Positions 17,859-24,122 of a stretch of DNA of 46,169 nt are shown here, one piece after another. Position numbers and translations under genes: made by a program. Source of the stretch: Nitrospinaceae bacterium (GTDB taxonomy: Bacteria > Nitrospinota > Nitrospinia > Nitrospinales > Nitrospinaceae); assembly GCA_024644405.1 (NCBI GenBank), contig JAHELC010000015.1, positions 1-46,169 of the forward strand. The letters are read 5' to 3'. How positions within the stretch are numbered: the stretch's first letter is position 1; every line of letters begins with the position of its first letter. The notes under the pieces are model-generated. The model was not told the origin of the DNA. It ran no database searches and saw nothing but the letters and a program-made list of their open reading frames with translations.

Positions 17859-18179
17859 ATGAAACATCAGGATTCACAGTCGGAAAAAATTCGGGTTCGC
17901 GTTGACCCGGTTTTGCAAGATCTGATTCCCGATTACCTGGAAAACAGATTAAAAGACCTGCTCGTTTATCGACAAGCTTTGGAAAAGGGCGATTTTGATT
18001 CAATTGCTGTCCTGGGTCATTCCATGAAAGGTTCCGGCGGGGGATATGGATTCAATGATCTAACCAGTATCGGCCGTGCTATTGAAAAAGCCGCCAACAA
18101 CAGGGATAAGGAATCCGTCCGCAAATCCATCATCGACCTTACGGATTTTCTAAATAAGGTGGAAATCATTTACGATTGA
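17859..18179 (+). CDS. stand-alone HPt phosphotransfer protein
   Basis: 106 residues forming one helical HPt domain. The phosphorylatable histidine is His54 in LGHSMKGSGGGYGF, with Lys57 and the Gly-Ser turn typical of the family; the N-terminal IRVRVDPVLQDLIPDYLENR helix and the KKVEII-like end fit. Such proteins shuttle phosphoryl groups between receiver domains. No histidine kinase or regulator is adjacent. The hybrid kinase at 3104-5698 lacks its own HPt and could be the donor. The gene lies 68 bases upstream of a cluster of multihaem cytochromes and in the same direction, so cotranscription is possible. Confidence 0.85.
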   Translation: MKHQDSQSEKIRVRVDPVLQDLIPDYLENRLKDLLVYRQALEKGDFDSIAVLGHSMKGSGGGYGFNDLTSIGRAIEKAANNRDKESVRKSIIDLTDFLNKVEIIYD

Positions 18180-18247: not shown

Positions 18248-20326
18248 ATGCCTGCTCCCCTCAAGTTCAAATTCACAGCCCGTCTTGCAGTGCTGTTCAT
18301 ACTGTTCATCTCCACCGTCAGTGCCCATGCGGAGAATCCTGCAGGAGTGGCCGCCACCGTCGGAGTCACCGGCAACGAGGAGCGATGCCTCACCTGCCAT
18401 CAGGGGATTGAAGAAATCAGCCGCTCGCATCCTCTTCAACTGGGGTGCACCTCCTGCCACGGCGGCAATGGTGCGGCGGAAGACAAAGTTGAGGCTCACG
18501 CCACGCTCATCTATGACCCGGCAGCAGGAACCGGCAAACGTAATCCTTCTTCCCTGAAAGTGGTCCAATTCAGCTGTGGCAGAGCCCAATGCCATTCCGG
18601 CCATCAGGATGAAACCCGCAACCACGTCGACCGGGTCCGCAAATCCATGATGGGAACTCTGTCCGGAGTCATTACCGGCCTGCGGTACCAATGGGGCGGC
18701 CAGCCGGAAAAATCGGCGCGTTACGGAATCTATGAAATAGAAGATAAAGACGGCACGTCTCCGGAAACCCTCGGCGCCCTGAACCGTCTTGAAGAGCTTC
18801 CTTATTTTACCGCCTACCATTGGCGGCAACATCAAACCGCACCAAAAGGAGCACCCCGTAAAAAAATTTCCAATCACATCGGTGACCATGTGTTGCGCGA
18901 ACGATGTTTTCAATGCCACATCGATGCGCCTCCCCCAAAAGGAGAATACCGCTCGCAGGGATGCGCCGCCTGCCATTTCAGGTATCACCCGGAAGGGAAA
19001 TACCTGGGCAGCGATCCGATGATTCCCAAAGACAAGGCGGGATATCCGGCATATCATCGCATGACGGTATTGCCCTCCAGCAACCTGTGCATCCAATGCC
19101 ACAAATCTTTCCTGTCGCAGATGACCACGGAAAAGTTTTCCATTCCCTTTCCTCAACGCGATCGCCGGGGAAAAGTACCCTTCCCGGGTGCCGGCCAACC
19201 CCGCATGGACGTTCATCTGGAACGGGGAATGGAATGCATTGACTGCCATACGCAGTCTGATATTATGGGAGACGGTAACATCTATTCCCGGCAATATCAG
19301 GCGGTGGAAATCCGTTGCGAAACCTGCCACGGCGACAGCACGTCGTATCCCCGGATCTCAAAAATCAAGACGTCCCAGGACCCGGCCGTTCGGTTGAGTC
19401 GCCATTATAAAGGTTTCACCAACAAGGTCGGCGACGCCATGGCGGTTTCTTCGAAGCAGCAAAAATTGACCAACGTCAAAGCGCAGGGTAAAAAATTCGT
19501 CACCTATAGCAAACGTACTGGAAAAGTGCGCGTCATCCCCCTGGCCAAGGATCAGCGTTGGGGACACAATATTCCCGGACACCGGGAAAAACTGGCCTGC
19601 ACGGCATGCCATTCGCAGTGGGTACCGCGTTGTGAAGGATGTCACATGACTCTGAAGTCGGGGAAAGGCGACGGTTCGGTACGTCCCAGCACCTGGAACC
19701 CGTTTCAATTCACCATGAAACATGAAACCCCGGCGTTGATGGTCGGCCCGCGCGGCAAAGTGGTTCCCATGCTGGCTCAACCTTCACATACCCTGACGGT
19801 TTTGGATCAACAGGAAAAAATAGTTCCGGTCGTTGACGACAATGGCGATTCACCGGGAGAATACCGTCATTGGGAATTCACCAACTCCGCCGGAGTCTCG
19901 GGTTCCAATCTGGCTTATGGCGCCCAACCGCATTCGGTAAGCAAGAAAGTGCGCACCTGCGCAAGCTGTCACCTGTCTCCGAAGACTCTGGGGATGGGAG
20001 AAGGGGATTTGTACATCAGGAAAAACTCGTCCGGCAAATACGATAAGTTCAACCCGCTGGTACGAACCAACCGGGTGCTGAACAAATCGAAATACGGACC
20101 TCAGGCCAAAGTCAATCAACGGGGGCTGGCGATCGCCGGCTCCGGTCAACCCGGAGCGCGGCCGTTCAACCAGGAGGAGATCACTCGTATCCTGAAAGTC
20201 GGCAACTGCATTCCCTGTCATACTGGTTATACCGACAAAATTTATAGAAACCTGAAAGAGAGTTACAAGTTTTCGATTAACATCAAACACCGCCGATTGA
20301 GAGACAAAATTTTAAAGAAGCGCTGA
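18248..20326 (+). CDS. exported dodecahaem c-type cytochrome
   Basis: 692 residues from the ATG at 18248, chosen because it begins a proper signal peptide (MPAPLKFKFTARLAVLFILFISTVSAHA). Twelve haem-binding motifs can be counted: eleven CXXCH from CLTCH (Cys47) to CIPCH (Cys654), plus one CX4CH, CGRAQCH, at Cys110. Several extra histidines are available as distal ligands. The N-terminal block CxxCHxGIEEIS...CxSCHGGN...AH...C..CH...GVI...WG is shared with the next protein, so the two are paralogues. Haems are spread through the length without a recognisable catalytic domain (no NrfA, HAO or Otr signature), so it is most likely an electron carrier in the periplasm or at the cell surface. It starts a four-cytochrome run. 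Confidence 0.9.
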   Translation: MPAPLKFKFTARLAVLFILFISTVSAHAENPAGVAATVGVTGNEERCLTCHQGIEEISRSHPLQLGCTSCHGGNGAAEDKVEAHATLIYDPAAGTGKRNPSSLKVVQFSCGRAQCHSGHQDETRNHVDRVRKSMMGTLSGVITGLRYQWGGQPEKSARYGIYEIEDKDGTSPETLGALNRLEELPYFTAYHWRQHQTAPKGAPRKKISNHIGDHVLRERCFQCHIDAPPPKGEYRSQGCAACHFRYHPEGKYLGSDPMIPKDKAGYPAYHRMTVLPSSNLCIQCHKSFLSQMTTEKFSIPFPQRDRRGKVPFPGAGQPRMDVHLERGMECIDCHTQSDIMGDGNIYSRQYQAVEIRCETCHGDSTSYPRISKIKTSQDPAVRLSRHYKGFTNKVGDAMAVSSKQQKLTNVKAQGKKFVTYSKRTGKVRVIPLAKDQRWGHNIPGHREKLACTACHSQWVPRCEGCHMTLKSGKGDGSVRPSTWNPFQFTMKHETPALMVGPRGKVVPMLAQPSHTLTVLDQQEKIVPVVDDNGDSPGEYRHWEFTNSAGVSGSNLAYGAQPHSVSKKVRTCASCHLSPKTLGMGEGDLYIRKNSSGKYDKFNPLVRTNRVLNKSKYGPQAKVNQRGLAIAGSGQPGARPFNQEEITRILKVGNCIPCHTGYTDKIYRNLKESYKFSINIKHRRLRDKILKKR

Positions 20327-20333
20327 CATATAT

Positions 20334-23021
20334 ATGAAATTCCTGTTTTCGAAAATAACAATTCTGACACTGTTCACCACACTTTCTCTGGCATGGACCC
20401 TCCCCCAGTTGATGGCTCAGGAAGGCTGGCCGGCGCCTTTCAACGATGAAAAACCGAACGACGAGCACTCCCCCGGCGGTTTCGAAAAGAACATGGTGGA
20501 CATTCCACCGCAGGAGGAGAAATCGACGATTGATGCATCCGATTTTCGGGATCCGTTCTTTTTTCTGAAAAGAAATGGCACCGATTCCAAAGAAGCTCTG
20601 AAGCCGGGCACAACGGTTGACGGCCTGCGGTTCAATACCTACAACAGCTCTAAAAGTTTTGTCGACCGCTATTACAAGAATTCCAATTTCGTACTGAAGG
20701 ATGTTTTCGGCCGCATCGAACTGGTCAACAAGGAAGCGGGATGCCTGAATTGCCACCGCGGCATTGAGGAAATCAGCCAGAACCACCGGTTTTCCTGCAC
20801 CCGATGCCATAATGGCAACCTGAGAGGTAAAACCGCTGCCGAGGCTCACCGGGGTCTCGTGTCCAATCCTTCCGACCTGAAACACGCGCCCAAATATTGC
20901 GGCACATGCCATGAAGAACAAATCGAGAAGGTGAAAAATTCGTTGATGACCACCGCGCGCGGCGTCATTGAAATCACCCGGGAAGCCTGGGGCGAAGCTC
21001 CTTTGAAACAACCCAGAAGAAGCAAGAAGAAGGGCAAGGTTCCGCCGTGGACCTACACCAGCGCCGGCAAACCGGTGGACGATTTTCTGCAGAAGAAATG
21101 CCTGCGCTGCCATGTGCAATCGCCGTCCCCGCACCGTGCGGGAGATTACCGGGCCACCGGGTGCGCTTCCTGCCACATGATCTACACCAACGAGGGAACT
21201 TCCCTGACGCGTGACCGCGCCATCCAGGAAGCGCAAAAGGCGGACCCGAAATATTTGAGAAACCGGTTCAACCGGGATGTCGCTTCAAATTCCCTGAATA
21301 ATCGGCGGGGGTATCCGTTACTGCACAAGTTCACCGTTGCGATACCCAGTGTCCAGTGCGAGCATTGCCATAACTACAACGGTGTCGGTAATGAATTCGA
21401 AGGTTTGTTCGGAAAACCGGCCCGCCCCAAAACCTCACAGATCGAGGTCGAGAAGGACCAGCCTGTGCTGTATGGACGGTCACACGACTTTCTCCTGCCG
21501 GATATTCATCGCGAAAAAGGCATGCACTGCATCGACTGCCACGGCGCCAACGAGATCAAGGCGGATGCCAACAAAAACCGGACCCAGCACGATGCGGTCA
21601 AGGTCCGGTGCGAAACCTGTCATGGTACCAACAGCCGGGCCCCTACCGGCATCGAGTTGAAAGCAGAAGACCCCAGGGCGGAAGAGTTGATCAAGAAAAA
21701 CCAACTCAATCCCAACCTGATGAAGAAAATAAAACTCGGCGACACGATTATGACCGACTTGGATGGGCAACTTCAGCCTCATATTTTACTGGTCGATGGC
21801 AAATGGATTCTATACTCCAAGGTCACGGGTAAGGAACATCAGATCCCGCTTTTAAAATTCATGAAACAGCGCCCGTATGCCCATCAGATACTCGGCCATA
21901 TGAAAGATACGGAATGTTCCGCCTGTCATGCGCGCTGGTCGGCCAGCGAATGGGGAATGCACGTGATCCGGGAAGACAACATCAATCCGAACCAGTGGCA
22001 GGACTGGTCTCTGAATGATCCCACTTTGCAACAAAAATTGTGGGGAGGGAAACGTGAAAAGGCTCAAATCAAACAACCTGCCGGAATGCTGAACTGGACT
22101 TCGGCGATCAACACCCCGAACGGTCCCCGGGGAAGCTGGACGAAAGGCATCTGGAGCCATGTCTTTTCCGAAACGGGTTGGAGCAGTCTGATCCTCGGAA
22201 AAAACAAGCGCAAACGCTACACGATCATGAAGCCGCATTATCAATATTTCCTGACCGATCTTTCCAATCAGGAGGGCCGGCCCACCCTGAGAGCCAAAGT
22301 GCCTCTGGCGCGCAACGGCAGACCGGGTTGGGTGATGACTCCCCATACCCCGCATACGATCCGGGCCACCACCCGACCCTGTGAGAGCTGTCACGAAAGC
22401 ACGCTGGCGACGGGACTCGGAGAATCGACGTTGAAATACGTGGAGGATGGAAAACCGTTTTTGAGCGAATTAAAACGCTCCAACCGCATCCTGCCTCAAT
22501 TTCAGATCAAACAGATGGTGTCGCGCAACGGCTGGAGCCTGCAGAATCCCATGCCCAAGGGAAAACTGCGGTTTTTGAAATCCAAGGAAATCAACTCCCT
22601 GTTTAAAAAATCGGACCGGTATCGCGCTTACCATTATCTGGCTCTGAGAAGGGCCGGACAATCACGCCTGTTGATCCGGGAGGAATTCCCTTACGATTTA
22701 CAGCATAAAATCAACGAAGATAAATTCGGTCCGCCCACGAAAAAAGAAACTCTTTATTATTATGATTTGGATCAACACAGTTTTTTCGAAAGTCAGCGGC
22801 CGGAGCCGACTCCGGCATCTGCACCCGATACAATCCTGGAGGAGCCGACGGCCGTCGAATCGCAGACAGGACAGGTGGTCCCTGCCCCTTCGCCTCCACC
22901 CAAGATGCCAGAAAATTCCGGTCCGAAATTTTTTATTGACCTGATGCCAAACGTGACCAAACCCACTCCAACCCCCCAGCCGCTTCCCGAAAAAGGGTTT
23001 TTGGAAAATGGAAACCCCTAA
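20334..23021 (+). CDS. exported decahaem c-type cytochrome with Pro-rich tail
   Basis: 895 residues with an N-terminal signal sequence (MKFLFSKITILTLFTTLSLAW). Ten CXXCH motifs occur between CLNCH (Cys137) and CESCH (Cys683): CLNCH, CTRCH, CGTCH, CLRCH, CASCH, CEHCH, CIDCH, CETCH, CSACH, CESCH. About 110 acidic/polar residues precede the first haem and about 200 haem-free residues follow the last, ending in a proline-rich tail (PTPTPQPLP). The first haem block parallels that of the upstream dodecahaem protein. No known catalytic family is recognised. It begins eight bases after the upstream stop and its 3' end overlaps the next gene by 14 bases, so the cluster is one transcription unit. Confidence 0.9.
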   Translation: MKFLFSKITILTLFTTLSLAWTLPQLMAQEGWPAPFNDEKPNDEHSPGGFEKNMVDIPPQEEKSTIDASDFRDPFFFLKRNGTDSKEALKPGTTVDGLRFNTYNSSKSFVDRYYKNSNFVLKDVFGRIELVNKEAGCLNCHRGIEEISQNHRFSCTRCHNGNLRGKTAAEAHRGLVSNPSDLKHAPKYCGTCHEEQIEKVKNSLMTTARGVIEITREAWGEAPLKQPRRSKKKGKVPPWTYTSAGKPVDDFLQKKCLRCHVQSPSPHRAGDYRATGCASCHMIYTNEGTSLTRDRAIQEAQKADPKYLRNRFNRDVASNSLNNRRGYPLLHKFTVAIPSVQCEHCHNYNGVGNEFEGLFGKPARPKTSQIEVEKDQPVLYGRSHDFLLPDIHREKGMHCIDCHGANEIKADANKNRTQHDAVKVRCETCHGTNSRAPTGIELKAEDPRAEELIKKNQLNPNLMKKIKLGDTIMTDLDGQLQPHILLVDGKWILYSKVTGKEHQIPLLKFMKQRPYAHQILGHMKDTECSACHARWSASEWGMHVIREDNINPNQWQDWSLNDPTLQQKLWGGKREKAQIKQPAGMLNWTSAINTPNGPRGSWTKGIWSHVFSETGWSSLILGKNKRKRYTIMKPHYQYFLTDLSNQEGRPTLRAKVPLARNGRPGWVMTPHTPHTIRATTRPCESCHESTLATGLGESTLKYVEDGKPFLSELKRSNRILPQFQIKQMVSRNGWSLQNPMPKGKLRFLKSKEINSLFKKSDRYRAYHYLALRRAGQSRLLIREEFPYDLQHKINEDKFGPPTKKETLYYYDLDQHSFFESQRPEPTPASAPDTILEEPTAVESQTGQVVPAPSPPPKMPENSGPKFFIDLMPNVTKPTPTPQPLPEKGFLENGNP

Positions 23022-23685
23022 AAAGATTTTCTTGATTGGACTGTTCTTTCTCACCGCCGGAGGGTGGTGTATCGGAGCCGAGGCATCACCCGCACTGGTC
23101 CAAGAAAAACAATGCGACACCTGCCACCGGTTTTCTAAAAACGATGCCATAAAATCAGCCCCCGATTTGTTTTTCTCCGGTGACAAGTTTCAAAAGGAAT
23201 GGCTGGAAAATTTTTTGAAGCGGCCCGGGACGATACGACTGGCAGGACCTACGCGAGACCCCGGGTTTTTAAAAGGCAAGCCGCAATATACAGGTCCTCA
23301 TCCCGCCTTGAACTCCAAAGAAGCTCGACAAATAACGGATCATTTGATGTCCCTGAAAACCCTGAAGGATCTTGCTCCGCTGGAATTACCGGAATTATCC
23401 AAAGGCGCACGCGTCCGAGTGAAAATATTGTTTGAGCGGGACTACAGTTGCATCGCCTGTCACCAGAGTTACAATCTGGCCCGGCAACCGCGGGGCGGGA
23501 TCTCCGGTCCTTCGCTGATCGACGCCGGCCGTCGCCTGCGCACCGAGTGGGTGTACCAATGGCTGAAGAATCCCAAACAATTTGTCCCCCAGGGAAGGAT
23601 GCCGCTTTACGCGTTTGATGAAGAGACCCTGCGGAAAATGACCCAGTACATCATGTCCCACAAAAAGGAACCTGAAAATAAATGA
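23008..23685 (+). CDS. exported dihaem cytochrome c (two class I-like domains)
   Basis: 225 residues. After a signal peptide (METPKKIFLIGLFFLTAGGWCIGAEA; its Cys could alternatively be a lipid site, but the lipobox is poor) come two cytochrome c-like domains: CDTCH at about residue 36 with a PDLFFSGDKFQKEWLENFLKRP helix, and CIACH at about 148 with GPSLIDAGRRLRTEWVYQWLKNP. Candidate distal Met ligands lie in the GRMPLYAF segment of the second domain. The architecture resembles cytochrome subunits that hand electrons to oxidases. It overlaps the decahaem gene by 14 bases and the next gene by four. Confidence 0.88.
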   Translation: METPKKIFLIGLFFLTAGGWCIGAEASPALVQEKQCDTCHRFSKNDAIKSAPDLFFSGDKFQKEWLENFLKRPGTIRLAGPTRDPGFLKGKPQYTGPHPALNSKEARQITDHLMSLKTLKDLAPLELPELSKGARVRVKILFERDYSCIACHQSYNLARQPRGGISGPSLIDAGRRLRTEWVYQWLKNPKQFVPQGRMPLYAFDEETLRKMTQYIMSHKKEPENK

Positions 23686-24122
23686 ACCGTGACTTGATTT
23701 TAATTTTGGGAGTCGCACTGATGGCAATACTCGCCGGCTGCGAACCGGACGCCGCGGATGAAAAACCGTCACCCCCTACTGTTGCATCGGCCCCATCCGT
23801 CCCTTCCCCAACGCCCCGTATGTATCCGGTCACTGCGGCAACCCGCGAAACCTATCAGTTTTACTGCGCCCAGTGTCATGGCACCAAGGGGCACGGCAAC
23901 GGCATCAACGCTCCCTACCTGACCGTACCGCCACGCGACCACACCAAGGCGGACTATCTGGAGACCCGCACCGACGAACATTTGTTCACCGCCATTCAGC
24001 AAGGCGGTTTGGCGGTCGGCCGCGCGCCCTGCATGCCCAGTTGGCAACACACACTGGATGAGAACACCATGCACTCCCTGGTGAGTTATATCCGCGAATT
24101 GTGCCAGTGCGAAGCCCTGTAA
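23682..24122 (+). CDS. monohaem cytochrome c lipoprotein
   Basis: 146 residues. The signal peptide ends in LAGC, so Cys20 is probably lipidated. A Pro/Ser-rich tether of about 30 residues leads to one class I cytochrome domain with CAQCHG (Cys63-His67) and a C-terminal helix SLVSYIRELCQC. The likely distal ligand is the Met of APCMPSW. Three further cysteines (in PCMP and CQC) may form disulfides. The start overlaps the stop of the dihaem gene (ATGA). It is the last gene of the cluster and probably tethers the chain to a membrane. Confidence 0.88.
   Translation: MNRDLILILGVALMAILAGCEPDAADEKPSPPTVASAPSVPSPTPRMYPVTAATRETYQFYCAQCHGTKGHGNGINAPYLTVPPRDHTKADYLETRTDEHLFTAIQQGGLAVGRAPCMPSWQHTLDENTMHSLVSYIRELCQCEAL

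Follow-up and report, generated by a model that had tools for sequence, protein, structure and literature searches.

A conserved 25-haem cytochrome cluster of Nitrospinota as a probable detached arm of an octahaem Rieske/cytochrome b complex

The closest described relatives of the cytochromes considered here are ExtM and ExtN (GSU2935 and GSU2934) of the Geobacter extHIJKLMNOPQS cluster, which carry 12 and 10 haems, respectively, and are encoded next to each other in a cluster whose further genes include one for a Rieske protein and one for a cytochrome b (PMC5877670), and that has been proposed to specify an inner-membrane bc complex (PMC2825233). A second relevant system is the bc-like operon of N. 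gracilis, for which the genome paper, in its treatment of this operon, names an octahaem protein as the sole putative cytochrome c subunit and notes operons of the same type in Kuenenia and Methylomirabilis (PMC3578206). Kuenenia complexes of similar make-up are described with an NAD(P) oxidoreductase, and in the same account Kustd1480-1485 has no agreed favourable redox partner (PMC12954380).

The stretch of DNA analysed here (the window, 46,169 nucleotides of a Nitrospinaceae bacterium, GCA_024644405.1, contig JAHELC010000015.1) contains four co-directional genes for exported c-type cytochromes at positions 18248-24122 of the plus strand, which we named A, B, C and D. Gene A (18248-20326) encodes an ExtM-like dodecahaem protein with 11 CXXCH motifs and one CX4CH motif, and B (20334-23021) a decahaem paralogue of A with the motif pattern of ExtN; these are followed by C (23008-23685), a dihaem class-I cytochrome (PF00034/PF13442), and D (23682-24122), a monohaem class-I cytochrome lipoprotein (PF13442) with a conserved C-terminal CxC. 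The genes are tightly packed, with 7 bp between A and B, and overlaps of 14 bp between B and C and 4 bp between C and D. Apparent signal peptides are present at the N-termini of A, B and C, that of A beginning at the ATG at 18248 although the open reading frame reaches an upstream TTG at 18176, and D has a lipobox (LAGC) whose Cys20 is invariant in 15/15 Nitrospinota. The codon pattern of CXXCH, TGYN6TGYCAY, occurs 26 times in the window, against about 2.5 occurrences expected from shuffling, and 24 of the 26 fall inside A-D. An initial annotation of this DNA had described four exported cytochromes with 12, 10, 2 and 1 haem motifs (25 in total), the last a lipoprotein, and its coordinates and counts proved right, the 12 of A including the CX4CH motif.

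This unusual motif (CGRAQCH, residues 134-140 of the open reading frame, with Cys134, Cys139 and His140) is invariant in all 21 Nitrospinota sequences and in 27/27 aligned homologues, those from Desulfobulbia included. Given that it aligns, as haem 3 of A, with an ordinary CXXCH of ExtM, 12 is a fair haem count for A. Only about 8-9 non-motif histidines are invariant for these 12 haems in the alignment of homologues, and Met159, Lys435 and Lys446 are invariant as well, and thus some haems in A may not be bis-His ligated. In D the haem motif CAQCH, Met118, Cys117, Cys141 and Cys143 are invariant in 15/15 Nitrospinota. Three of these cysteines lie outside the haem motif; Cys117, beside the presumed axial methionine (APCMP), is found in Nitrospinota only, and the C-terminal CxC is common to Nitrospinota and Desulfobulbia. 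The extra cysteines could possibly form a disulphide or a metal site.

Searches with the NCBIfam profiles related A and B to the Geobacter pair. A matched NF040943 (ExtM) with 278 bits (E 1.4e-82, residues 65-692), the equivalog cut-off being 800, and B matched ExtM with 183 bits and NF040967 (ExtN) with 69 bits, the cut-off of the latter being 200; the ExtM cut-off was exceeded in none of the 77 genomes of the phylum. When the proteins were aligned together, every one of the 12 motifs of A fell in register with a motif of ExtM, and motifs 10 and 12 were missing from both B and ExtN. On these sequence grounds A and B are homologous to the ExtM/ExtN pair and, since both score below the NCBI equivalog cut-offs, constitute a distinct subfamily within the ExtM/ExtN superfamily. 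The likeness extends to gene order, a 12-haem gene followed by a 10-haem gene, and to the link with Rieske and cytochrome b genes, which is direct in Geobacter and likewise in those relatives of A and B from Desulfobulbia that are discussed below. The two systems differ in that A is about 28-31% identical to ExtM and has CX4CH at haem 3, B has about twice the length of ExtN, and the A-D cluster lacks ExtHIJKL, ExtOPQ and ExtS and has the class-I cytochromes C and D instead. In phylogenetic trees Nitrospinota A and Desulfobulbia A formed one clade with support of 1.0, as did the B proteins with support of 0.95, and the branching of ExtN with respect to B did not resolve. A search of PDB sequences with A and B returned nothing significant (weak matches, E 0.065 and worse), and AlphaFold2 models built from 21-sequence alignments had mean pLDDT values of 43.7 (A) and 46.9 (B) and pTM values of 0.31 and 0.36. 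Thus, of the profile search and structure prediction that the initial annotation had advised, the former produced the ExtM/ExtN match, but the models were too poor for use, haem stacking included.

Both arrangements of the 12-/10-haem pair occur within the Desulfobulbia class, where one genome (G117, locus L189) has a genuine extM-N-O-P/Q-S cluster with ExtM (1075 bits), ExtN (665 bits), Rieske, ExtQ and ExtS. A simple A paralogue of 588-608 aa, present in many Desulfobulbia and not beside bc genes, was set aside.

Matches to A in genome contigs came almost entirely from Nitrospinota/Nitrospinaceae metagenome-assembled genomes. At E <= 0.001 B was matched in 54 of 61 relatives and in 27/28 near-complete genomes (G029 through A only), and the ExtM model found matches in 56/64 genomes of the order and in 1/13 from the rest of the class. 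In every one of the 21 neighbourhoods recovered from four families A and B lie side by side, and C and D follow them in 20 of these, the exception being G031; conservation of the four-gene order, which the initial annotation had wanted checked, is thus upheld. The common flanking genes are NHL-repeat, SnoaL-like and glgX genes upstream and DUF1015 and EngB genes downstream; at five loci (L049, L050, L052, L054 and L057) the flanks are different, yet A and B are still together. Conservation of the order, and cohesion of the genes despite altered flanks, show A-D to be a real unit. We found no description of it in the literature on N. gracilis and Nitrospinota that was searched.

The host genome also contains a type-II DMSO reductase-family operon in which an alpha subunit, cut by the contig end, adjoins a beta subunit and an EB_dh gamma subunit. 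Given that this alpha subunit matches subunit A of the Kuenenia nitrite oxidoreductase (7b04) with 1401 bits over 940 residues, the host is presumably a nitrite oxidiser. NxrB itself was unusable as a presence trait, being seen in 23/77 genomes, and many assemblies probably lose near-identical copies. One genome of 1.7 Mb and 97% completeness (G015) has nitrite oxidoreductase (NXR) and a bc octahaem operon, and neither A nor B was found in it, which looks like a secondary loss from a small genome; therefore the A-D arm is not essential to nitrite oxidation.

No Rieske or cytochrome b gene lies beside A-B at any of the 21 Nitrospinota loci, in contrast to the Geobacter cluster. In Desulfobulbia, however, relatives of these genes form a single operon with a bc core in the order Rieske, cytochrome b6, subunit IV, octahaem cytochrome, D-like monohaem cytochrome, A, B, monohaem cytochrome. 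This operon was seen at six loci in five or six genomes and is complete in L151/L111, L184, L185 and L200, the copies in L186 and L187 being cut by contig ends; a further locus (L114) has the order cytochrome, A, B. The core of this operon has a counterpart in the host genome on another contig (C28, 79.7-84.7 kb), where Rieske, cytochrome b6, subunit IV and an 899-aa octahaem protein are encoded without A or B. Identities to the Desulfobulbia proteins are 49% for Rieske, 66% for cytochrome b, 43% for subunit IV and 35% for the octahaem protein, and the two other cytochrome b genes of the host are only about 38-40% identical to the Desulfobulbia cytochrome b. By these comparisons the C28 operon is orthologous to the Desulfobulbia core. 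Similarity is also found in the two small cytochromes: D shares 44% identity and a C-terminal LRELCxC with the Desulfobulbia monohaem cytochrome whose gene lies between the octahaem gene and A, and C aligns with a dihaem region of the Desulfobulbia octahaem subunit, residues 511-694 (31.5% identity over 203 aa, E 3e-26). Thus A, B, the D-like protein and the bc core of the Desulfocapsa/Desulfobulbaceae operon (L111, L184, L185 and L200) have orthologues in Nitrospinota, and what is one operon in Desulfobulbia is two loci in Nitrospinota. Desulfobulbia have no separate C, and their D-like protein lacks a clear lipobox and Cys117.

Operons of the C28 type are kept across the order (11 loci; the host copy likewise), in the order NAD(P)-oxidoreductase-like gene, Rieske, b6, subunit IV, octahaem. 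In the host the first of these, a pyridine-nucleotide-disulphide oxidoreductase-like gene (L062:8265-9596), lies immediately upstream of Rieske; its position is kept across the order, and its products are 32-41% identical, far below their neighbours. As they are described, the anammox complex (Kustd1480-1485) and the N. gracilis bc-like operon resemble the C28 operon in having split b6/subunit IV, a Rieske protein, an octahaem protein replacing cytochrome f and an adjoining NAD(P)-oxidoreductase-like gene; the likeness to Kuenenia is one of description, and the passages dealing with these complexes do not mention an attached 12-/10-haem pair (PMC12954380, PMC3578206). A relative from the class but outside the order (G061, L212:5773-16000) has two Rieske-b-IV-octahaem operons in tandem, one of which includes a 9-motif protein, and between the operons lies a 2-haem D-like gene; A and B were not found in this genome.

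Orthology of the core, combined with the likenesses of C and D to the Desulfobulbia operon, is a classical mark of a single complex with its genes divided between two loci. Given that homologues of A and B sit with Rieske and cytochrome b in Geobacter and Desulfobulbia, and that the orthologous core is encoded in the host, as would be expected of a member of an octahaem Rieske/cytochrome b complex, we consider it probable, with some reserve, that A-D form the periplasmic electron-transfer arm of such a b6f-like complex. The initial annotation had called the cluster an uncharacterised electron conduit; an electron-transfer module it does appear to be, but it is no longer unplaced, since A and B match a pair that is bc-associated in Geobacter and Desulfobulbia. 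Several observations count against this assignment: A-D lie beside the bc core at no Nitrospinota locus, the NCBIfam scores of A and B are far below the equivalog cut-offs, and G015 has the core without A or B, so that the core can work without them. We infer the physical partnership of A-D with the core in Nitrospinota from gene neighbourhood in another phylum, and likewise the order of the carriers and the direction of flow.

Nitrospinota are major marine nitrite oxidisers, and a nitrite oxidiser needs reverse flow, by which high-potential electrons from nitrite reach the quinone pool. In the proposed arrangement the membrane core on the other contig (NAD(P)-oxidoreductase-like protein, Rieske, b6, subunit IV and octahaem) would be extended by A and B as a haem chain leading outward from the octahaem subunit, and electrons would pass, in either direction, between the quinone pool, Rieske, the octahaem protein, the 22 haems of A and B, and C and D. 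Through these class-I cytochromes the A/B chain would be connected with soluble cytochrome c; D, which its lipid would tether to a membrane, would exchange electrons with the pool of soluble cytochrome c, NXR and oxidase. Flow could be forwards, with oxidation of quinol, or reverse, from nitrite to quinone; in reverse flow A-D would be a natural port, and forward flow on stored glycogen would be equally possible. A more specific version, which we put forward only tentatively and think rather unlikely, has A-D as the entry port of nitrite-derived high-potential electrons into the complex, the latter and its NAD(P)-oxidoreductase partner driving reverse electron transport, so that the whole would be a split supercomplex of 33 c-type haems (25 + 8). 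A conserved 25-haem module with relatives in one operon with the same bc complex is a concrete candidate for that complex's missing electron-transfer partner, and it offers further, independent grounds for associating ExtM/ExtN of Geobacter, a pair that has been little studied, with bc complexes.

The initial annotation had directed the electrons to the cell surface or a terminal acceptor, and both destinations were weighed. With 22 haems in two large exported proteins and a lipoprotein at the end, A and B might span the periplasm and D sit at a membrane, so as to reach an extracellular acceptor or donor, much as MtrCAB and other porin-cytochrome conduits use multihaem electron transfer in the periplasm; in Geobacter, moreover, ExtM has been recovered from the fractions of both membranes, outer and inner, as well as from the periplasm, and a porin-like gene belongs to the ext cluster (PMC5877670). 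The A-D cluster, however, has no porin, no MtrA-family decahaem and no surface decahaem protein, no porin or beta-barrel gene lies beside it at any of the 21 loci, and the host has a separate PF11854 porin locus of different distribution, PF11854 being present in 11/31 relatives and A/B in nearly all. All genomes with PF11854 have A/B, but so few lack A/B that this association is uninformative (Fisher p = 0.54, not significant). Because no copy has a porin and an MtrB-type porin/decahaem locus exists elsewhere, a surface conduit is disfavoured, and we hold it improbable. As the initial annotation had stated, NapC/CymA and alternative complex III genes are likewise absent from the cluster by Pfam and NCBIfam profiles, as are NrfA and HAO genes.

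That A, or A with B, instead reduces or oxidises a small molecule such as an oxyanion as a terminal enzyme, with a catalytic haem and with C and D feeding in electrons, would suit the scarcity of invariant histidines, the invariant Met159, Lys435 and Lys446 and the CX4CH haem, and the ext operon has been tied to selenite/tellurite reduction through extI (PMC5877670). Residue invariance has many causes, though, and an alignment does not stand in for a structure; it is extI, and not extM/N, that the selenite phenotype goes with, and neither A nor B matches the PF02335 (NrfA), HAO or OTR families in Pfam and NCBIfam, which bears out the earlier view that they match no recognised catalytic multihaem family. 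We regard an enzymatic role as quite unlikely. Alternatively, A-D could store electrons in the periplasm or carry them between NXR and the terminal oxidase, with no relation to bc in Nitrospinota, the Desulfobulbia operon then being a different use of the same proteins. The cluster is unlinked from the bc core in Nitrospinota, the host has NXR, and C and D resemble NXR-to-oxidase carriers; but the relatives of C and D are themselves parts of the Desulfobulbia bc operon, and G015 has NXR without A/B, and we give this explanation little credence.

The porin locus of the host (contig C6, L061:6368-14328) comprises a 10-haem DmsE/MtrA-type cytochrome and an 11-haem NrfH-fusion cytochrome, directly followed by an MtrB/PioB-family porin (PF11854, E 1.6e-98) that the contig end cuts, and adjoins a second set of Rieske and cytochrome b genes, which includes two pentahaem proteins. 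MtoA genes have been reported in Nitrospinota metagenome-assembled genomes (PMC11442690).

Upstream of A, on the same strand, the window encodes a 106-aa Hpt-domain protein (17859-18179; PF01627, 2e-6) with a canonical HSMKGSG motif. Its gene is directly upstream of A in 18/21 loci, even where the other flanks differ, and the protein is possibly a regulatory companion that would place the A-D operon under phosphorelay control.
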